A stretch of DNA of 64,000 nt from Clostridioides difficile (GTDB lineage: Bacteria; Bacillota; Clostridia; Peptostreptococcales; Peptostreptococcaceae). Shown piece after piece: positions 26,755-53,291 of this stretch; the stretch's first letter is position 1, and every line of letters starts with the position of its first letter. The stretch covers positions 124,001-188,000 of the forward strand of contig NZ_JRHN01000044.1 of the NCBI RefSeq assembly GCF_001299635.1, in the 5' to 3' direction. The notes beneath the pieces were generated by a model. The model was given only the letters and a program-made list of their open reading frames with translations, made no database searches and was not told the origin of the DNA. A program made the position numbers and the translations under genes.

Positions 26755-27028
26755 TAAAAAATCCGTCCTAAATCAATAGGACGGATATATTTTCCGTGGT
26801 ACCACCTAAATTTATATATACTCAAAGTTGAATATATATATCTCAATATATGCTGTAACGTGCACACACGATATCAGATACTCTGTAGCCTTAAACTACA
26901 TTTCACCTTACTCCTTAAAGACCCATTCAATAAACACTTTTTATTAAGTTCTCAGCACCCTTAACTCTCTGTACAAAAGTATATTTATTTACTATTTCTT
27001 ATCACAGGATTAAATTTATTAATTTCTT
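26755..27028 (-). promoter_or_regulatory. T-box riboswitch, tryptophan specificity
   Basis: The T-box sequence AGGTGGTACCACGG lies at 26794-26807 on the minus strand. A terminator (stem ATCCGTCCTA/TTAGGACGGAT, 26761-26786, then Ts) follows. In stem I, GAATGGGTC places TGG (26923-26925) as specifier codon. It controls mtnN-trpS by tRNA-dependent antitermination. Confidence 0.93.
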
Positions 27029-36670: not shown

Positions 36671-36941
36671 AAAAAACTCGCCCCCTTTAAACAAAGGGAC
36701 GAGTTATAAATCGCGTTACCACCCTAATTCTATATGTGAATTTAATTCTATCCACATATAACACTCTAATAGTATAACGGTACTAACCGGCACAGCTTAA
36801 TAGAATTTAATCGTTCAGCCTGCAGCTCAAGAGTGATTTTTACCTTTATAAATTCATTGGTTCTCAGCATACCCAATTCTCTGTAAAATTATCTAAAGAT
36901 AATTGTCTCTATCAACGCTTTTAAAAATTTATCTGTGTTTA
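36671..36941 (-). promoter_or_regulatory. T-box riboswitch, isoleucine specificity
   Basis: The T-box sequence AGGGTGGTAACGCG lies at 36712-36725 on the minus strand, followed by a terminator (AACTCG/CGAGTT stem, 36675-36705, then Ts). In stem I the specifier region AAAATCACT presents ATC (36835-36837), an isoleucine codon, which agrees with ileS downstream. Confidence 0.93.
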
Positions 36942-40579: not shown

Positions 40580-40959
40580 AAACTCTCCCCCTATAAAATT
40601 TCTATCATTATAAGTACTTCTTCTAAAAAATGTTTATTCCTTTTTTATAGACTAATATTTTATGTATTAATAATTGTTTTTTTCATATTAAATTTATTTT
40701 TTATCAATCTTCCTATACAAGACTGTATTATTTATATATAATTATATTATAAAGTATAAGTTTAATTTACATTTTACATCTCAAACTTACTTTATATTCT
40801 TTTATAGTTATTTTTATTTTTAGATGCAATATAAAACCAATTAAAATTTAAAATGACTTTTGTTTTGTTGATATTAATTCATTTAGGCATTCATGCATTA
40901 GGATAACGTTATCACAACAAAGGTTTATGTCCTAAAAAAAATACAAGGAGGATTTTCTT
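40580..40959. other. Divergent intergenic region
   Basis: About 380 AT-rich bases between divergent genes. Apart from the cre-like palindrome at 40901-40914 I see no gene or strong hairpin. No clear -35/-10 pair is visible for the PTS-type gene. Confidence 0.35.
40901..40914. promoter_or_regulatory. cre-like palindrome upstream of the PTS IIC-type gene
   Basis: GGATAACGTTATCA contains the perfect palindrome GATAACGTTATC. It fits the CcpA consensus TGWNANCGNTNWCA in all but one position. It lies about 46 bases before the start codon, so catabolite repression is plausible. Confidence 0.5.
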
Positions 40960-42455: not shown

Positions 42456-43811
42456 TTAGTTTTTAAATGAATGTATAGGAGCTGGAATTCTTCCTCCTCT
42501 TTGAGTAAATAACTCAGACGAATTTGTATTTATAGGCATTACTGGTGCTCGCCCTAAAAGACCACCAAATTCCACCATATCACCTACGTCACATCCTGGA
42601 GCTGGTATAATTCTAACTGCTGTAGTTTTATTATTAATCATACCTATTGCTGCCTCATCAGCTATCATAGCTCCCAGTGTACCTGCTGTAGTACTTCCTG
42701 GAACAGCTATCATATCAAGACCTACAGAACAAATAGCAGTCATTGCTTCAAGCTTATCTATACTCAAAGCACCTTTGATAACAGCATCAATCATACCCGC
42801 ATCTTCTGATACTGGTATAAATGCACCACTTAGACCTCCAACATGTGAGCACGCCATGACTCCACCTTTTTTAACAGCATCATTTAAAAGAGCCAACGCT
42901 GCTGTAGTACCATGAGTACCAACAACTTCAAGACCCATTTCTTCTAATATATTTGCCACTGAGTCTCCAATGGCTGGTGTAGGTGCTAATGATAGGTCTA
43001 TTATTCCAAATGGTACATCCAGTCTACTAGAAGCTTCTTTTGCTACCAATTGTCCAACTCTTGTAATTTTAAAGGCAGTCTTCTTAACTGTCTCTGCTAC
43101 AACATCAAATGGCTCTCCTTTTACCTTTTCTAAGGCTCTTTTAACAACCCCAGGACCACTTACACCGACATTTATTATTCTATCAGCTTCACCAACACCA
43201 TGGAAAGCTCCTGCCATAAATGGATTATCTTCAACTGCGTTACAGAATACTACTAGTTTTGCACAACCAAATCCCTTTGCATCTTTCGTTAATTCTGCAG
43301 TTTCTTTTATAATTTCTCCCATTTCTTTTACTGCATCCATATTTATACCACATCTTGTAGAACCTACATTTACTGAAGCACATACCTTGTTTGTACTTGC
43401 CAAGGCTTTTGGAATTGATTTAATTAATATCTTATCACCCTTTGTATACCCTTTTTGAACCAATGCTGAGAATCCACCTATAAAATCTATACCTAAATCC
43501 TCCGCAGCTTTATCTAATGTCTGTGCAAACTTTACATAGTCACTTTCATCTGTTGCACCTGCAATAATAGATATTGGAGTTACTGATACTCTCTTATTTA
43601 CAATTGGAATACCATATTCACGCTCTATATCTTTTCCAACTTTTACTAAATCTTTAGCAGAATTCATAATCTTGTTATATATTTTCTCTCTAGCCTTATC
43701 TCCATCAGGGTCTATACAATCTAATAAAGAAATCCCCATAGTTATAGTTCTTATATCTAATTGTTCTTCATCTATCATTTTGATTGTCTCAAGTATATTT
43801 CCTACATTCAC
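42456..43811 (-). CDS. UPF0210 (PFL/DUF711) family protein
   Basis: This 451-residue cytoplasmic protein belongs to the UPF0210 family, whose structure resembles pyruvate-formate lyase-like barrels but whose function is unknown. I choose the GTG at 43811 ([16 protein letters not shown]). It has GGAGGTGA nine bases upstream and matches the usual N-terminus; a GTG at 43820 lies within that site. The motif [15 protein letters not shown] near residue 18 is characteristic. The conserved partner is the ACT protein just upstream. Confidence 0.92.
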
Positions 43812-43837: not shown

Positions 43838-44107
43838 TTACAGATTATGCATTGAGTTAAATATTTCTTCTCTTTGAATTTTTACATCTACTGATAATTC
43901 TTTTCCTCTTTTTATTAAGTCTTCAACCGTTTGCTCAAAAGAGTTTAATGCTTTCTCTAAATCAACTATCATAATCATTGTAAAATACTCTTGTAATATC
44001 TTTTGTGAAATATCTACTATGTTAATATTTTGCTTGAATAACTCATCACTGATTCCTGCTACTATACCTGGTTTGTCCTTCCCAATTACTGTTAAAATTG
44101 CTCTCAT
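43838..44107 (-). CDS. ACT domain protein (UPF0237)
   Basis: The protein is 89 residues and consists of one ACT domain ([24 protein letters not shown], 1-24), a small-molecule-binding fold. UPF0237 and UPF0210 genes are paired in many bacteria, implying that the ACT protein regulates its partner, perhaps by amino acid binding. They are 26 bases apart here and share two tandem promoters. Confidence 0.92.
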
Positions 44108-44397: not shown

Positions 44398-46347
44398 TTA
44401 TTTTTTTATTTTTATGAATCTAATTATATTTTTTCTTGTGCCAGGATTTACAATCAATATAGAGCAAAACATAGTTAAACTTAACACTCCAATTAAAATG
44501 AAACTCTCTTTCCCAATGCTATATTTTTTAGGTGATAATTTAGTATTAATTTCATCTTTATTTTCATTATTGTGATTTACTTGATTATTTATTTTTGATT
44601 GATTATTATTCATATCTAAATTGTCATTATAAAAATCTTCATTATAAAAATATGATTGATTATTAGTGCTAAATACAGTTTTTTGTTTTAAGCCTTTATT
44701 ATCATTTTCTAAGATAAAACTTTTGTTAGATTTATCCTCATTTTTTAACTCATCTTCATTTTTTAAAATCTCATCTTTTTCTTTATCATTAGTTATATTA
44801 TTATCATCGTTATCTTTTGGAGGATTCTTACTTGTAGTACTGCTAGAATCAGATTCTATATTGTTGTCATTTGGAGTATTAGGAGTTTTTTCATCATTAC
44901 TACTATTATTATCTTTATTGTCATTATTTAGATTACCATTATTATCTTCTTCTCTATCTGGGTCATCTCTTCCTCCTCCTCCACGGTCACCACCAGCATT
45001 TTCATTTTCTTGTTCATCATCTGGTGTAATCTGATTATTACCCCCTCCTAATACAAATCCAGGTTTTAAAAATATATTTGAATACCCATCTCTTAATCCA
45101 CCTTCCACTTTTACTCTAAAACATCTCAACTTAAAATCTTCAAAATCAATTGTGGCTTGATTTGTAATATACTCTAGTTCATTGCTTATCCAATTTATAC
45201 CATCATCAGAATATTCCACAAATACCTTTTTTGCATTATATGGCATGTCATAATCTAAAGCAGCTGTATAACCATATTCCCGGTTTCTAAAATACACAAC
45301 TAAATTATTTATAGGCTCCTTATTTCTAATAGAGATATTTATAACTGGAAAAACATCTTGATTTAATACTATATTTTTTTCATTTAGAATATTTTCATCA
45401 AATTTACCTCTTATAATAAACTCTAGATTTTTATTTAAATCAGTATAGTAATTTAATAAATCCCACTCCACATTTATATTTGCAATTTTTCCACTTGAAG
45501 TTTTTAGACTTACTTCTTTTGGGAGTTCTACATCCTCAATTTTATCATCTTTTGTTAATATCAATTCTTCTTCAAATACACTAATGCCTCTAAGATTACA
45601 TCTTATAATATTATAATCTTCATCTTGTGGTATGTCTGGCATTATTACATTCCCATCACCAATGATATAAACAATCTTAGTTTTTGATACAATTGATTCG
45701 CCTTTTGTATTATTTGCTATTGTATTTTGTTGGTTATTCTTATTAACAATTACTGATGTATCCTCTATTTCCACATCTCCATTACAGTAAATACCTACAG
45801 CATCTTTTCCATTAACCTCAATTATTCTAGATTCTACTTTAATATCATTTTCTGAATAAATTCCTATTGCATTATCTCCACTTGCACGTATATTACCAGT
45901 TTTTCCATAATATGTAGCTAGAACTAGTTCAGCTTCTTTCTCTATATATAAAGCAGTTCCATTCAGTGCAACTATATTATCTATTCCTATATTTAATTTT
46001 CCTCCCCGTTCTACATGTATTACACCTTCATTCCCTCCTTCTCCAATTATATTTAACTTATTACCACTAATATTAAAATTACCTTTATCTTTTATAAGTA
46101 TTTTATATTGGTTTGTATCTATTGTGACATTAGCTCCATTTGGAACACTAAATCCAAAATAATTATCTATTACCATATCACATGTAAGAATATAAACTAT
46201 GTCTCCCTTATTATCTTCATTTTTTACAATCCAATTTTTAAAATCATCCAAACAATTGTTTTCTTGCGAAAAGCTCTTTTTTGGTAAAATTATAAAAATA
46301 CTTACTAATAAAGTTATAAGAAGAAATATCTTATTTTTTTTATTCAT
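44398..46347 (-). CDS. Membrane-anchored surface protein, paralog A of three
   Basis: I do not recognise a named gene. The 649 residues show a signal peptide (cleavage likely after about 28) and a beta-helix-like region with repeats such as NAIGIYSENDIKV and DAVGIYCNGDVEI (about 150-200). A Big_4-like Ig domain follows near 268-316 (IEDVELPKEVSLKTSSG...VEWD), then a second beta domain ending with DFKLRCFRVKVEGGL. The motif GDRGGGGRDDPDRE is at about 453-466. An Asn/Asp/Glu-rich stalk of some 145 residues leads to a membrane segment (613-634) with a Lys/Arg tail. Cys32, Cys56, Cys250 and Cys409 are shared with the paralogs. There is no LPxTG. AGGAGA precedes the ATG. Confidence 0.75.
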   Translation of the reverse strand: MNKKNKIFLLITLLVSIFIILPKKSFSQENNCLDDFKNWIVKNEDNKGDIVYILTCDMVIDNYFGFSVPNGANVTIDTNQYKILIKDKGNFNISGNKLNIIGEGGNEGVIHVERGGKLNIGIDNIVALNGTALYIEKEAELVLATYYGKTGNIRASGDNAIGIYSENDIKVESRIIEVNGKDAVGIYCNGDVEIEDTSVIVNKNNQQNTIANNTKGESIVSKTKIVYIIGDGNVIMPDIPQDEDYNIIRCNLRGISVFEEELILTKDDKIEDVELPKEVSLKTSSGKIANINVEWDLLNYYTDLNKNLEFIIRGKFDENILNEKNIVLNQDVFPVINISIRNKEPINNLVVYFRNREYGYTAALDYDMPYNAKKVFVEYSDDGINWISNELEYITNQATIDFEDFKLRCFRVKVEGGLRDGYSNIFLKPGFVLGGGNNQITPDDEQENENAGGDRGGGGRDDPDREEDNNGNLNNDNKDNNSSNDEKTPNTPNDNNIESDSSSTTSKNPPKDNDDNNITNDKEKDEILKNEDELKNEDKSNKSFILENDNKGLKQKTVFSTNNQSYFYNEDFYNDNLDMNNNQSKINNQVNHNNENKDEINTKLSPKKYSIGKESFILIGVLSLTMFCSILIVNPGTRKNIIRFIKIKK

Positions 46348-46402
46348 TTTTTTCTCCTATTTGATTATTCTGTCAAGTAAAATTATGTCTCTTTAATGTA
46401 TT

Positions 46403-48343
46403 TTATTTATTAATTCTTAATCTTATAATTTTATCTATATATTTTATAATATCCCTATTTATTACTACTACTGAAAATAACATGGTTAAAACTATGATTT
46501 CAACTCCAATTATAAGCTCACTTTTAGAACTCTGAGTCTTATCATATGGCTTTGAAATAGATTTTAGTTTATCATTAGAATTATTTACTTCAATACCATC
46601 TGTCTTACTTAAAATTACTTTATCTTTATATGTATTTTTAGAAAGTTCATTATTTTCCTTATAACCTTCTTTTAGGTCTTGTTCTAAATTATTTTCAATT
46701 TTATTTTTTTCAATCAAATTATTATTTTTAACTTTATTATTGATATTCTCTTCACTCTTTTCTTTGTGTATTTCTTTATCTATTTCAGTATGTTTTTCAT
46801 GTGACTTATTATTTTCTTCATATTGTCGATTATTATTTTTTTCTTCTCCATTATCTTCTGTGACATTACTTGAATCTAATGGTCTTTGCTCATCAGTATT
46901 ATTGTTATTTTTATTATTTACACCTGAATTAACCTTATTGTCTTCTCTATCTGGGTCATCTCTACCTCCACCTCCACGGTCTCCACTATCATCATCGACT
47001 TCTTGTTCATCATCTGGTGTAATTTGATTACCTCCTCCTCCCATTACAAATCCAGGCTTTAAAAACATATTTGAATAACCTTCTTTCAATCCACCTTCTA
47101 CCTTTATCCTAAAACATCGTAACTTGAAATCTTCAAAATCAAGCATAACCTGATTACTAATATTCTCTAATTCTTCACTTACCCAATTTACACCATCCTC
47201 TGAATATTCCACAAATACTTTTTTAGCACTATATGGCATACTATAATCTAGTATAGCTAGATAACCATTTTTAGAATTTAAGAAAGATACTTCTAAATCA
47301 TCTATAGGTTCTTTATTAACAATATAGACATGTAAAACAGGAATAACATCATTGTTTATAATTATGTTCTTCTCATTTAAATCTTCTTCTTTAAATTTAC
47401 CTATTATAATAAACTCTGTATTATTATTTAAATCATTATAATAGTTTGATAAATCCCACTCAACATCTAAATCTATAGAGTTCATACTAGAAGTTCTTAA
47501 ACGTACTTTATCTGGTAATATTATATCTTCTACTTTATCCTCTTTTGATATGTTCATTTCTTTTTCAAAAGCTCTAATCCCTCTATAGTTACAATTTACT
47601 ATCTCGTAATTCTTATTCTGAGGTATATCTGGAGTAATTGTATTCTGTTCTCCAATAATATAAATCTTATTTGCTTCTGATACAATCGACTTAACTTTTT
47701 TATTTTCCAATAATACATTTTGCTTCTTATTACCACTATGTATAATTATTGAGGTATCTTCTATTTCGACTTCTCCTTTACAATAAATTCCTATTGCATT
47801 TTCTCCATCAGCTTCAATTGTTTTAGAATCTACTCTAATATCATTTTCCGAATAAATTCCTATTGCATTTTCTCCATTTGCTTTTATATTTCCAATCTCC
47901 TCATAATATTTATCTATACTCAAATTTGCATCTTTTTCAACATATAACGCAGTTCCATTTAATGCAACTATATTATCTATTCCTATATTTAATTTGCCTC
48001 CCTTTTCTACATGTATTACTCCTTCACTTCCACCCTCTCCAATTATATTTAGCTTGTTTCCATTAATATTAAAATGTCCTTTATCTTTTATAAGTATCTT
48101 ATATTTATTTGTATCTATTGTAATATTAGTTCCATATGGAATACTAAATTCAAAATAATTATCTACTATCATATCGCAAGGAAGAGTATAAACTATTTCT
48201 TTCCTATTATCTTCATTTTTTACAACCCAATTTTTAAAATCTTCTAAACAATCATTTTCTTGTGAGAAACTCTTACTTGGTAAAATTATAAAAATTATAG
48301 TTAATAAATTTATAAGAAGAAAAATTTTATTTATTTTATTCAT
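46403..48343 (-). CDS. Membrane-anchored surface protein, paralog B of three
   Basis: The 646-residue protein has the same plan as its neighbours: signal peptide, LPCDMIVDNYFEFSIPYG strand region, two NAIGIYS/NAIGIYC beta repeats, the Big_4-like segment KVEDIILPDKVRLRTSS, DFKLRCFRIKVEGGLKEGYSN, GDRGGGGRDDPDRE, a low-complexity stalk and a C-terminal membrane helix with a basic tail. Sequence before the GDRGGGG motif aligns with A nearly without gaps, while the stalk has diverged into Lys/Glu-rich sequence. Spacing to the next gene is 55 bases, suggesting one operon. Confidence 0.75.
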   Translation of the reverse strand: MNKINKIFLLINLLTIIFIILPSKSFSQENDCLEDFKNWVVKNEDNRKEIVYTLPCDMIVDNYFEFSIPYGTNITIDTNKYKILIKDKGHFNINGNKLNIIGEGGSEGVIHVEKGGKLNIGIDNIVALNGTALYVEKDANLSIDKYYEEIGNIKANGENAIGIYSENDIRVDSKTIEADGENAIGIYCKGEVEIEDTSIIIHSGNKKQNVLLENKKVKSIVSEANKIYIIGEQNTITPDIPQNKNYEIVNCNYRGIRAFEKEMNISKEDKVEDIILPDKVRLRTSSMNSIDLDVEWDLSNYYNDLNNNTEFIIIGKFKEEDLNEKNIIINNDVIPVLHVYIVNKEPIDDLEVSFLNSKNGYLAILDYSMPYSAKKVFVEYSEDGVNWVSEELENISNQVMLDFEDFKLRCFRIKVEGGLKEGYSNMFLKPGFVMGGGGNQITPDDEQEVDDDSGDRGGGGRDDPDREDNKVNSGVNNKNNNNTDEQRPLDSSNVTEDNGEEKNNNRQYEENNKSHEKHTEIDKEIHKEKSEENINNKVKNNNLIEKNKIENNLEQDLKEGYKENNELSKNTYKDKVILSKTDGIEVNNSNDKLKSISKPYDKTQSSKSELIIGVEIIVLTMLFSVVVINRDIIKYIDKIIRLRINK

Positions 48344-48396
48344 ATTATTCTCCTATTAATTTTTTAATAAGCTTAAAATGCTTTAAACGATTCTGT

Positions 48397-50325
48397 CTAT
48401 TTTTTATGTTTTATAAATTTATCTACATATTTTATGATACCAGGATTTACTACTACTATTGAAAATGACATAACTGATACTATAATTCCACCCCAAATAA
48501 CACTCCTATCTTGAAATTTCTGAGTTTTACTATGTGAATTAGAAGTAGAGTTTGAGCTATTATTAAATTTATCTAATTTAAAAGTCTCTTTTTCATTTGA
48601 TATTTTTTTATTATCAGTTGTATTTTTACCTTCCTGATTTTCTTCATAATCTCTTTTTAATATTTGAATTAAACTATTCTCATACTTATCTATAATAGTT
48701 AATTCATCATTCTTAATATCATTATCTCTGTTATTGATATTAGTCTTATTAGTTTCTTTATCTTTCTCTATAATATCTTCATTAGACTTATCATTTTTTT
48801 CATCCTCTTGGTGAATATTATCTTTTTCTTCATTATTGAAATTTGTTATATTGTTAGAATCTTCAGGTATTTCTTCAGTGGAATTATCATTTTTCTTATT
48901 ATCATCTAAATCAAATTCATCATTTTCTCTATCTGGGTCATCTCTACCACCACCGCCACGGTCACCATCAATATCATCATTTCCCTTTTCATCATCTGGT
49001 GTCTCTTGATTGTCACCACCACCCATTATAAATCCTGGTTTAAAAACCATATTTGAATAACCTTCTTTTAATCCGCCTTCCACTCTTACTCTAAAACAAC
49101 GTAGCTTAAAATCTTCAAAAAAAAGTATAGCTTGGTCTCTAATATCTTCCTGTTCCTCAGATGTCCAATTGATTCCATCTGCTGAATATTCAACAAAAAC
49201 TTTATTTGCATTGTATGGCATATCAAAATACAAAATAGCTACATATCCATCTCTTGTGTTTTGATAATCTAATTCCAAATTATCTATTGGTTTTTTCTCT
49301 GCAACAGATATGTCCAAAATAGGAACAACATCATCATTTATTACAATTTTTTCTCTATTTAATGTTTCTATTTTAAACTTTCCTGTTATACTAAAAGTTT
49401 CTTCTTTTTTTAACTTTTCATAATAACCAGTAAAATCCCATTCTACATCTATATCAAGTTGATTACCACTAGATGTTTCTAATACCATATCTTTCGGAAA
49501 TTTTATATCTTCTATTTTATCATCTTTACTTACTTTTATTTCTTCACTAAATACATCAATTCCCCTATGGCAACATGTTATAATATTATAGCCAGAATCT
49601 TCAGATATAGCTGGGATAAGCTCATTAGAGTTATCAATTATATAAACTTTCTTGCTTTCTGATACAATTGATTGTGCAGCCTTATTATTAGCTCTTAATA
49701 ATCCATTTTCTTTGCTACTACTATAAGCTTTTATTGAAGATTCTTCTATCTCAACATCACCTTTAGAATAAACACCTATAGCACTCTCTCCATTCACTTC
49801 AATATCCTTATTTAATATTCTAATATCATTTTCAGTATAAATTCCTATTGCATCTTTTCCATTTGCCTTTATTTTTTCAACAGATTCATAGGATGATTTA
49901 ATATATAAGTCTCCTCCTTCTTCAACGTATAAGGCTGTCCCATCAGTAGCAATTATGTTATTTATACCGATACTTATACTTCCACCAGTTTCTACATGTA
50001 TTACTCCTTCTTTTCCTCCTTCACCTATTATATTTAGTTCATTATCATCAATAATAAATCTTCCATGATTTTTTATCAGTATTTTATATTTGTTGGTATC
50101 TATTGTAAAATTACTGTCATGAGGAATATAAAATCTAAACTCTTCGTCTATTACCATATCACAAGGAAGAGTATAAACTATTTCTTCTTTGTTATTTTTA
50201 TTTTCTTGAACCCACCTTTCAAAATCTTCAAAACAATTATCCTCTTGTCCAGACACCTTGTTTGGAGAAATTACAAAACAGAGTATTATTATGCTTACAA
50301 AAATAAATATTTCAGACTTCTTCAT
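48397..50325 (-). CDS. Membrane-anchored surface protein, paralog C of three
   Basis: This is the first gene of the triplet, with 642 residues. It is the most divergent copy (start MKKSEIFIFVSIIILCFVIS, beta repeats DAIGIYTENDI and SAIGVYSKGDVEI), but it keeps the paired N-terminal cysteines, IITCCHRGI, DFKLRCFRVRVEGGLKEGYSN, PGFIMGGG, PDDE and GDRGGGGRDDPDRE. It ends with a membrane helix and the tail KYVDKFIKHKK. AGGAGT is five bases before the ATG. The promoter should lie in 50326-50424, where TTGACA occurs at 50405-50410 without a clear -10. Confidence 0.75.
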   Translation of the reverse strand: MKKSEIFIFVSIIILCFVISPNKVSGQEDNCFEDFERWVQENKNNKEEIVYTLPCDMVIDEEFRFYIPHDSNFTIDTNKYKILIKNHGRFIIDDNELNIIGEGGKEGVIHVETGGSISIGINNIIATDGTALYVEEGGDLYIKSSYESVEKIKANGKDAIGIYTENDIRILNKDIEVNGESAIGVYSKGDVEIEESSIKAYSSSKENGLLRANNKAAQSIVSESKKVYIIDNSNELIPAISEDSGYNIITCCHRGIDVFSEEIKVSKDDKIEDIKFPKDMVLETSSGNQLDIDVEWDFTGYYEKLKKEETFSITGKFKIETLNREKIVINDDVVPILDISVAEKKPIDNLELDYQNTRDGYVAILYFDMPYNANKVFVEYSADGINWTSEEQEDIRDQAILFFEDFKLRCFRVRVEGGLKEGYSNMVFKPGFIMGGGDNQETPDDEKGNDDIDGDRGGGGRDDPDRENDEFDLDDNKKNDNSTEEIPEDSNNITNFNNEEKDNIHQEDEKNDKSNEDIIEKDKETNKTNINNRDNDIKNDELTIIDKYENSLIQILKRDYEENQEGKNTTDNKKISNEKETFKLDKFNNSSNSTSNSHSKTQKFQDRSVIWGGIIVSVMSFSIVVVNPGIIKYVDKFIKHKK

Positions 50326-50424
50326 CTTTTACTCCTAATATTTTAATATAATAATGTTGAAAAATGTATCTTATATATATAATTTTTCCATAATTAGCAC
50401 TTGTTGTCAATTTTTATAAATAAA

Positions 50425-50471
50425 AAGCTACTTAATAAAGTAAACAATCGTTTAACTTTAATAAGTAGCTT
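50425..50471 (-). terminator. Terminator of spoIVA
   Basis: AAGCTACTTA (50425-50434) pairs with TAAGTAGCTT (50462-50471) and the stem continues inward through TAAAGT/ACTTTA and AAC/GTT. On the minus strand it is followed by TTTTTATTT. Confidence 0.8.
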
Positions 50472-50477
50472 ATATTC

Positions 50478-51953
50478 TTATAATAAAATAGTTATAATAT
50501 TAGAGCTTCCTTCATTTACAATTTTTTGTAGAGTCTTTTGCATCTTAACTCTTATCTCTTCTGGCATAGTATACAATTTACTCTGTAATTGTTCTTTCAC
50601 TAAATCATGAAGTGACTTACCAAACATATTTGATTCCCATAAATCTGCTGGTTGCTCTTCAAACACCTCCATAAGATATTTTATCATCTCTTCACCTTGA
50701 TTCTGATTACCAACTATTGGAGAAACTTCTGTAGATATATCTGCCTTTATAATATGAAGTGATGGTGCATTAGCTCTTAGCTTGATACCATATTGTTTTC
50801 CTTGTTTCATTATTTCTGGTTCCTCTAAACTAAGTTCTTCTAGAGAAGGAGCTACTACTCCATATCCTTTTATCTTAGCATCTACTAAAGCACTTTCTAT
50901 TTTATCATACTCATTCTTAACCTTAGATAATCTAGTTATTAGACTAAGCAATTGATAATCTCCCTCAATTTTAAATCCACTCTTTTCTTCAAGGACATTA
51001 TAGAATAAATCTTGCTTTGTCTGTAAATCAATATTTATAACGCCTTCTCCTAGCTCTACATTATCAACACCTGTATCCTCCAAAAACTCTAACTCAGAAA
51101 ATCCTTGCATAATTCCTTCTATATCTCTTATTTTTCCTATATCTATAATACTTTGTTTTAATGTTGTTATTATGCTACTTTTTATCCAGTGATTTCTTTC
51201 TAGACCTTCAACCCATTTAGGTAAATTAATTCTTATTTCTGTAAGTGGGAAATCATACAATACAGCTTCCATAACTTCCTCTATATCATCTTCTTCCATT
51301 TCAACTACATTCATTGGAAGAACTGGAACTTCATACTTTTCTTCCAATTCATTTCTAAGCATACTTGTTTCCTCACTTTTTGGACTTAGTGTATTTAAAA
51401 CAACGGCAAATGGTTTTTTAAGGCTTTTTAATTCTTGTATAACTCTTTCTTCTGGCTCTACATAACTTTTTCTGTCAATACCAGTAACTGAACCATCTGT
51501 CAACACAACTACTCCTATTGTAGAATGGTCTTTTATAACTTTTTTAGTTCCTATTTCTGCTGCCTTTTCAAATGTCATAGCTTCTTGTGACCAAGGAGTT
51601 GATACCAATCTTTGTTTTCCACCTTCCTCATGCCCTAAAGCTCCTTCAACTATGTATCCAACACAATCTACCATTCTTACTTTCAGAGATACTGTGTCTT
51701 TTATTTTAATTTCTACGCCATCTGCTGGTACAAATTTTGGTTCTACTGTCATTATAGTTTTACCTGAGCCACTTTGAGGTATCTCATCTCTTGTTCTATC
51801 CTTCTTAAACTCATTGTCTATATTTGGTATAACCAACTTTTCCATAAATTTTCTTATAAAAGTTGATTTTCCTGTTCTTACAGGACCCACTACTCCAATA
51901 TATATATCCCCCTGAGTCCTTTTGGATATATCTTCGTATATGTTATTATTCAT
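50478..51953 (-). CDS. spoIVA: Stage IV sporulation protein A
   Basis: SpoIVA is an ATPase that polymerises on the outer forespore membrane and forms the base of the spore coat. The Walker A motif is GPVRTGKST near residues 22-30, a Walker B-type segment (VRMVDCVGY) follows, and the protein has the family's C-terminal end with EEIRVKMQKTLQKIVNEGSSNIITILL-like sequence. I use the ATG at 51953 (491 residues, MNNNIYEDI) because AGGAGG lies six bases upstream. It should be made in the mother cell under sigma-E, but I could not fix a sigma-E promoter by eye. Confidence 0.96.
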   Translation of the reverse strand: MNNNIYEDISKRTQGDIYIGVVGPVRTGKSTFIRKFMEKLVIPNIDNEFKKDRTRDEIPQSGSGKTIMTVEPKFVPADGVEIKIKDTVSLKVRMVDCVGYIVEGALGHEEGGKQRLVSTPWSQEAMTFEKAAEIGTKKVIKDHSTIGVVVLTDGSVTGIDRKSYVEPEERVIQELKSLKKPFAVVLNTLSPKSEETSMLRNELEEKYEVPVLPMNVVEMEEDDIEEVMEAVLYDFPLTEIRINLPKWVEGLERNHWIKSSIITTLKQSIIDIGKIRDIEGIMQGFSELEFLEDTGVDNVELGEGVINIDLQTKQDLFYNVLEEKSGFKIEGDYQLLSLITRLSKVKNEYDKIESALVDAKIKGYGVVAPSLEELSLEEPEIMKQGKQYGIKLRANAPSLHIIKADISTEVSPIVGNQNQGEEMIKYLMEVFEEQPADLWESNMFGKSLHDLVKEQLQSKLYTMPEEIRVKMQKTLQKIVNEGSSNIITILL

Positions 51954-52271
51954 ATTATTCCTCCTATACATCTAATCTTATTAAATTATATTTAGAGTTA
52001 GGGGTTAATATTCTTAAAATAGAAAAATAAAGACTAGCAATATTAATTTCCCCTACATACAGAAACTGGTAAACTTTAAAGTGAATTAAATTTATTAAAA
52101 TCCATTATATTAAAAAGATATAATGACAATCATGATAACTATAAATTGCATATAAAATAATTTATTATACTGTATATACATAGACTATGCTATATAAAAT
52201 TAAAATAGCCCTCTTTATACTAAAGAGGGCTAAAACAAATTTATTATTTTTTTATTTTGTATTACAATGAC
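51954..52271. other. Intergenic region gpsA-spoIVA
   Basis: About 320 bases hold the gpsA terminator and the spoIVA promoter region. A weak sigma-E-like pair (TATAG and CATTATAT, about 14 bases apart) is seen on the minus strand near 52110-52145. No gene is visible. Confidence 0.3.
52206..52232 (-). terminator. Terminator of gpsA
   Basis: TAGCCCTCTTTA pairs perfectly with TAAAGAGGGCTA around a three-base loop; T-rich DNA follows on the minus strand. Confidence 0.88.
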
Positions 52272-53291
52272 TTATATCTCATCACCTAAAACGACTTCTT
52301 CCATTTCATGCTTTTTACTTCTCATCATTAGTTCTATTCCAACTTCCTTAGGATCTGAACCTTTGTTTATTACAGAATATATAGCATTAGTTATTGGCAT
52401 GTCTATATTCAATTTTTCAGCTACATCGTGTGCTACTTCAGTGGCAGTTATACCTTCTACAACCATCTTTACTTCTTTTAAAGTATTTTCTAGGCTCATA
52501 CCTTGACCTATAAGTATACCAGCTCTTCTATTTCTACTATGCATACTTGTACAAGTAACAATTAAATCTCCTATACCTGAAAGACCTGCAAATGTAGACA
52601 CATTAGCTCCCATAGCAATTCCAAGTCTACTCATTTCACTAATACCTCTTGTCATAAGAGCAGCTTTTGCATTATCACCATATCCTAATCCATCACATAT
52701 TCCAGCTCCAAAAGCTATAATATTTTTTAATGCTCCTCCAAGTTCTACTCCAACTATATCTGGATTTGTATAAACTCTAAGCTTAGGGCTCATAAATAAA
52801 TCTTGTATCATCTGTGCTATTTTTAAATCTTCAGAAGCTACTACTACTGTAGTAGGGATTTCTCTTGCTACTTCTTCAGCATGAGATGGTCCAGATAGTA
52901 TTACATATGGATTTTGTGGTAATTCTTCTTCACAGACTTGAGATAATCTAAGTCCAGTACCTTTTTCAAGACCTTTTGCCACATTAACAATAACTTGTCC
53001 CTCTTTTATAAATGGTTTTATTTTTTGGCAAGTACTCCTTACAGCCTGTGATGGAACTGCTAAAATTATCACTTTACAATCTTTTATAGTTTTGTCTATG
53101 TCAGTACTTATAGTTATATTATTTGGAAATAATACTCCTGGTAAATAGTCTGTATTTTCTTTAGTCCTATTTATTTTTTTAGCTTGTTCCTCTTTTCGAG
53201 TCCACATACTCACATCGTTACCTTTTTTTGCAAGACCTAAAGCTAATGCACTTCCCCAACTTCCAGTACCTAATACACATACTTTCTCCAT
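52272..53291 (-). CDS. gpsA: NAD(P)-dependent glycerol-3-phosphate dehydrogenase
   Basis: It reduces dihydroxyacetone phosphate to sn-glycerol-3-phosphate for phospholipids. The nucleotide-binding VCVLGTGSWGSALA is at residues 4-17, the active-site segment GALKNIIAFGAGICDGL near 190. The ATG at 53291 (339 residues) has AGGTGG eight bases upstream; the GTG at 53303 lies over that site. It forms a der-plsY-gpsA run, so the enzyme making glycerol-3-phosphate is next to the one acylating it. Confidence 0.96.
   Translation of the reverse strand: MEKVCVLGTGSWGSALALGLAKKGNDVSMWTRKEEQAKKINRTKENTDYLPGVLFPNNITISTDIDKTIKDCKVIILAVPSQAVRSTCQKIKPFIKEGQVIVNVAKGLEKGTGLRLSQVCEEELPQNPYVILSGPSHAEEVAREIPTTVVVASEDLKIAQMIQDLFMSPKLRVYTNPDIVGVELGGALKNIIAFGAGICDGLGYGDNAKAALMTRGISEMSRLGIAMGANVSTFAGLSGIGDLIVTCTSMHSRNRRAGILIGQGMSLENTLKEVKMVVEGITATEVAHDVAEKLNIDMPITNAIYSVINKGSDPKEVGIELMMRSKKHEMEEVVLGDEI

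Follow-up and report, generated by a model that had tools for sequence, protein, structure and literature searches.

Background

Three adjacent, similar genes lie directly beside spoIVA in the 64,000-nucleotide stretch of Clostridioides DNA analysed here (the window), and they raise the question of what kind of proteins they encode and whether their position beside a sporulation gene bears on their role. The account we put forward, and hold to be probably right as a whole, is that they form a family of bitopic surface proteins specific to Clostridioides, present in recombining tandem copies and transcribed from a vegetative promoter of their own. Anchored, repeat-rich surface proteins encoded in variable tandem arrays are a familiar kind; what is unusual here is the invariant motif and the apparent exchange between heads and stalks. 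For researchers working on C. difficile, the array provides a genus-specific, probably outward-facing family for which there are a probable orthologous locus, a history of copy number that can be read from the genomes, and relatives that naturally have no copy. Proteins of this kind could well serve in adhesion, phage attachment or immune recognition, and exchange of heads and stalks across bacterial species can be followed here in a small system.

Organization of the array and protein architecture

The three genes are encoded on the minus strand. Copy 1, the first transcribed, occupies positions 48397..50325 and encodes a predicted membrane-anchored surface protein of 642 aa; it is followed by copy 2 (46403..48343, 646 aa) and copy 3 (44398..46347, 649 aa). 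All three open reading frames (ORF) are intact, the gaps between them are 55 and 53 bp, and a search of the same genome with copy 1 as the query recovers the three array genes and no fourth. Heads are 54-67% identical among the window copies and stalks 18-38%, and these identities, together with the ORF coordinates, agree with the earlier note, which had described three tandem paralogues with these lengths and gaps.

The window proteins share a single order of parts. A hydrophobic segment at the N-terminus is followed by a head of ~430 residues, the motif GDRGGGGRDDPDR and a low-complexity stalk of 133-141 residues (133-149 across the family) that is enriched in Asn, Asp, Glu and Lys; a second hydrophobic segment (in copy 3 at residues about 613-637, positions 44437..44511 on the minus strand) and a basic tail complete the C-terminus. 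The N-terminal segment and the single C-terminal one are present in 11 of 11 full copies, with 3-6 Lys/Arg and 0-2 Asp/Glu among the last 16 residues, as expected from the signal peptide, membrane helix and basic tail that had been read from the window alone. Judging by hydrophobicity, the signal peptide would export each protein and the C-terminal helix would hold it in the membrane, leaving the stalk to carry the head through the wall.

This layout resembles that of LPXTG-type sortase-anchored adhesins, which likewise combine a signal peptide, a repeat-rich head, a stalk, a C-terminal hydrophobic segment and a basic tail, but the array proteins lack a sorting motif ahead of the membrane helix. 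The pattern [SPN]PxTG occurs in none of the 11 full copies and xPxTG is absent from 10 of them, the one instance being a GPSTG at residue 515 of 657 in copy 2 of genome G007, in the middle of the stalk. The CWB2-repeat cell wall proteins of C. difficile are also large, exported and outward-facing, with clustered genes. Unlike them, the three window proteins have no CWB2 among their Pfam matches up to E 1, and a membrane helix would serve as anchor instead.

The heads are repeat-rich in their first half. Self-alignment of the profile for residues 45-250 (in copy 3, positions 45598..46215 on the minus strand) gives a score of 63.2 at an offset of 23 residues, which none of 200 column shuffles matched (mean 24.2, maximum 41.7), and residues 251-435 show no repeat signal (108 of 200 shuffles as high). 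An offset of 23 residues falls within the regular repeat of ~20-25 residues that characterizes right-handed beta-helices. The earlier note had proposed beta-helix-like repeats and a Big_4-like Ig domain; the significant repeat is consistent with the first part, whereas membership in Big_4 (PF07532) is not supported, since every score obtained lies under the Pfam cut-off of 22.1 bits. Copies 3 and 1 score 17.7 and 13.9 bits and copy 2 gives no match up to E 1; the copy 3 head taken separately reaches 18.3 bits, and a six-frame search yields 21.8 and 18.1 bits. The resemblance to Ig-like surface proteins of this family thus consists of a weak match near residues 271-306, seen in six of seven heads up to E 1, with scores under the curated cut-off. 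Profile searches of this type had been suggested in the earlier note, and Pfam and NCBIfam contain no curated family that the array proteins match above cut-off. Up to E 1, the sub-threshold Pfam matches of the seven heads comprise DUF7305 (seven), Big_4 (six), Beta_helix (three), gp45-slide_C (three) and five other families (one or two each). A 17-residue MazE match in the stalk of copy 2 was taken as low-complexity noise, a sequence search of the PDB returned profilin matches at chance level only (E 0.57 for the best and 0.67), and PHROGs gave a single match at E 0.093. For the head, a beta-helix with Ig-like domains after it is a reasonable guess, and the head may most plausibly bind something outside the cell, whether a surface, the host, a phage or a neighbour.

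The head-stalk motif

The 13-residue motif GDRGGGGRDDPDR stands between head and stalk in copy 1 (48928..48966), copy 2 (46946..46984) and copy 3 (44953..44991), all on the minus strand, and is the same in 12 of 12 aligned heads. Searched as degenerate DNA, its DRGGGGRDD portion occurs 13 times in six of the 393 genomes of the order, in every case within members of the family. The glycine codons of the motif vary while its amino acids stay fixed, which indicates that selection acts on the protein. Retention of the motif as a DNA element is weakened by the same variation, though the rare codons in it, CGT and the second GAC as read on the minus strand, do not vary among the 11 full copies.

Distribution and copy number

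Among the genomes searched at the level of family, order and phylum, the proteins were found only in Clostridioides. A profile of the three window proteins matches six of the 71 genomes of the family, all six among the eight Clostridioides genomes, and none of the 63 from other genera. At a threshold of E 0.01, a profile built from 12 heads matches seven of the 393 genomes searched in the order, six of them Clostridioides; the sole match outside the genus (G336; E 3.3e-4, 56 positions) falls in an ORF of 80 aa that lacks the architecture, and we judged it to be chance. Across the phylum, the same profile matches one of 398 genomes, that of the window itself. A pattern scan of GTDB contigs returned two loci, both labelled Clostridioides difficile (CD160 and HC132), but its patterns derive from the N-terminus and fit members of the G004 and G007 types poorly, which makes it a weak test of absence. 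One alignment-based search and two with copy 1 only revealed no relatives on viral contigs, plasmids or phages, and the array does not answer to the description of phage- or plasmid-borne cargo.

A survey of copy number, likewise proposed in the earlier note, revealed 0 to 3 copies across the eight genomes of the genus. Between spoIVA and the gene for an ACT-domain protein that flanks the array downstream (43838..44107 in the window, minus strand), G000 and G006 carry three copies, G007 and G009 two, G004 one, and G005 and G010 none; the assembly of G008 breaks inside the array. With G008 left out, spoIVA identity groups the genomes as G000/G006, G007/G009 and G004/G005/G010. Reading frames are intact in all 11 full copies. 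Both zero-copy sites retain scars, from which it follows that the genes were once present there and were then deleted: in G010 three codons survive at the start and about 25 at the end (stop included), and in G005 about 11 at the end, so that the ends of the two scars differ (scar coordinates may be out by one base). These losses in two of eight genomes imply that the genes are dispensable there.

Recombination and selection

The single gene of G004 appears to be a copy-1 head fused to the tail of a last copy. Its head is 86-87% identical to the copy-1 heads of G000 and G006 and 66-78% to those of G007 and G009, against 54-57% for the six later heads, whereas its last 40 residues are closest to the four last copies (52-60%, versus 35-46% for the four first and 30-35% for the two middle copies). 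The stalk follows the tail, with 26-36% identity to last copies, 20-21% to first and 17-21% to middle ones, although stalk alignments are unreliable in such low-complexity sequence. For the same reason the join can be assigned to the motif or beyond it, the exact point not being placeable.

A second exchange looks recent. Between G000 and G006, synonymous divergence (dS) is 0.04-0.06 in the copy-1 head, 0.305 in its own stalk and 0.17-0.20 in the spoIVA and DUF711 flanks, as though the head had been exchanged and the stalk had not; the short ACT gene, however, has a dS of 0.104, closer to the value of the head, which counts against head exchange. Between the copy-1 heads of G007 and G009, dS rises from 0.22 to 0.63 within the head. 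Our own permutation-based implementation of the pairwise homoplasy test yielded 0/300 permutations for all 11 heads, 0/1000 for the five copy-1 heads and 0/1000 for the six later heads. The control spoIVA gave 77/1000 over seven genomes and 139/1000 over five. A second control, DUF711, gave 3/1000 over seven genomes, a result that weighs against exchange specific to the heads, but the signal is gone over the five genomes with intact arrays (284/1000).

Ratios of nonsynonymous to synonymous divergence (dN/dS) for head segments lie at 0.09-0.47 (15 comparisons from five orthologous pairs), and those of the stalks are 0.52, 0.54, 0.19, 0.45 and 1.15 (five comparisons). On these estimates the heads are under purifying selection and the stalks are under little constraint in most pairs, which, with the head and stalk identities of the window copies, fits the earlier proposal of a conserved outward head on a drifting spacer. 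Single-genus occurrence, copy loss and fusion, recombination of heads and the probable C. difficile orthologue considered below had all gone unnoticed in that reading.

Tandem copies would on this evidence arise and vanish by recombination, which may also move heads between stalks and species; sequence comparison puts the boundary close to the invariant motif. More tentatively, and with less confidence than in the account as a whole, the array might be a modular surface-variation cassette in which recombination in or beside the coding sequence of the motif swaps whole heads among stalks, copies and species, and in which GDRGGGGRDDPDR is itself a functional site, for docking or processing, shared by no described surface protein family.

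The probable C. difficile orthologue

In strain R20291, spoIVA is CDR20291_2513 (PMC5311115, PMC5864091), and the adjoining tag, CDR20291_2512, is listed as a 'putative exported protein' with a CmrR site, ACAATAATTGATAATTGT, 75 bp upstream that is weakly positive by EMSA (PMC12548384). The same 18-mer lies, without mismatch, upstream of copy 1 in G004 (at 73 bp) and in G009, and it overlaps the -35 box. G004 contains 10 of 12 listed CmrR-type sites exactly, the cmrR site itself with 1 mismatch, and these shared sites indicate that G004 is C. difficile or very close to it and that its gene is very probably CDR20291_2512, which is thus very probably the C. difficile orthologue of the array. The correspondence relies on the adjacency to spoIVA and on the upstream 18-mer, and the slot differs in that G004 has one gene with fused head and stalk where the window has three. 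The earlier note knew of no described system of this form, which stands insofar as no curated family reaches cut-off, but a probable orthologue is in print; in the main texts of the library searched, the family is undescribed, and the tag CDR20291_2512 appears in that one paper only, which does not concern sporulation.

In strain 630, spoIVA is CD2629, and a published SNP table gives Gly68 for CD2627. Residue 68 of the 89-aa ACT protein of the window is also Gly, and we infer that CD2627 corresponds to this protein and that the slot of the array is CD2628. CcpA sites have been reported in strain 630 near CD2625 and CD2626 (PMC3510511); in the window they lie at 40900-40915 (+) with 1 mismatch and at 43675-43690 (-) with 2 mismatches, the latter within chance (0.71 expected).

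Transcription and alternative explanations

The gene beside the array (50478..51971, minus strand) encodes the three SpoIVA Pfam domains and adjoins it in five of the five genus genomes with an unbroken array. Since spoIVA appears as a SigE gene in two published tables, the array products could belong to the sporulation envelope: they would then be made together with spoIVA in the mother cell and enter the outer membrane of the forespore. We regard this as unlikely, because a terminator-like hairpin (50418..50472, minus strand; -19.9 kcal/mol, z -7.45) followed by a T-rich run parts spoIVA from the array, which has a conserved sigma-A-like promoter of its own, and, among the main texts of the library searched, the only paper with the CDR20291_2512 tag is not about sporulation. 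The hairpin came from a separate folding analysis, a simple terminator scan of the region having called none, and Rfam contains no RNA element matching at the array. The promoter (50382..50410, minus strand) reads TTGACA-17-AAAAAT and has TGG ahead of the second hexamer. Matches to this kind of pattern number 63 in the region, where chance alone would give 59.2, so that only conservation speaks for the promoter: the TTGACA box is intact in the six genomes with the gene and changed in both scars (G005 and G010), while the second hexamer is a poor one and not the same in G008. With hairpin and promoter standing between them, the link to spoIVA looks incidental; the adjacency pointed out in the earlier note is real as a position but probably carries no functional meaning, and transcription is probably vegetative, from the array's own promoter.

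The position of the 18-mer over the -35 box invites a different reading, in which CmrR binds the promoter as part of CmrRST regulation and couples the protein to rough and smooth colony states. The weak EMSA result in R20291 and the exact sites of G004 and G009 favour it, yet the window site has 2 mismatches in the 10 fixed bases (G007 2, G006 1), genomes of the genus each contain 7-19 instances of the consensus against 6-12 of a reversed control, such that a single site may be chance, and CDR2512 is in none of the 19 rows of a CmrR/CmrT expression table (PMC12694794). CmrR control of the window array was not adopted on these grounds, and a surface switch of this type seems quite improbable. 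We would give equally little credence to the notion that the genes are relics, or near-neutral genes being lost and without present function: two of the eight genomes have lost them, with scars whose ends differ, and the stalks are close to free drift in most pairs, but every full copy is intact, the heads are under apparent purifying selection and the 13-residue motif is invariant. An anchored, genus-specific surface family with its own vegetative promoter accommodates these observations best.

The surroundings of the array vary beyond spoIVA. In a comparison of loci L035-L041, the immediate upstream neighbour of spoIVA is gpsA in G000 and G008 (with 51971-52272 of the window between them), and in G004, G005, G006, G007, G009 and G010 two genes judged by eye to be transporter-like take its place. 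Elsewhere in the window, T-box leaders are located on the minus strand at 36692-36924 and 26774-27014, the first of them preceding the gene for a class I tRNA synthetase of I/L/M/V type.
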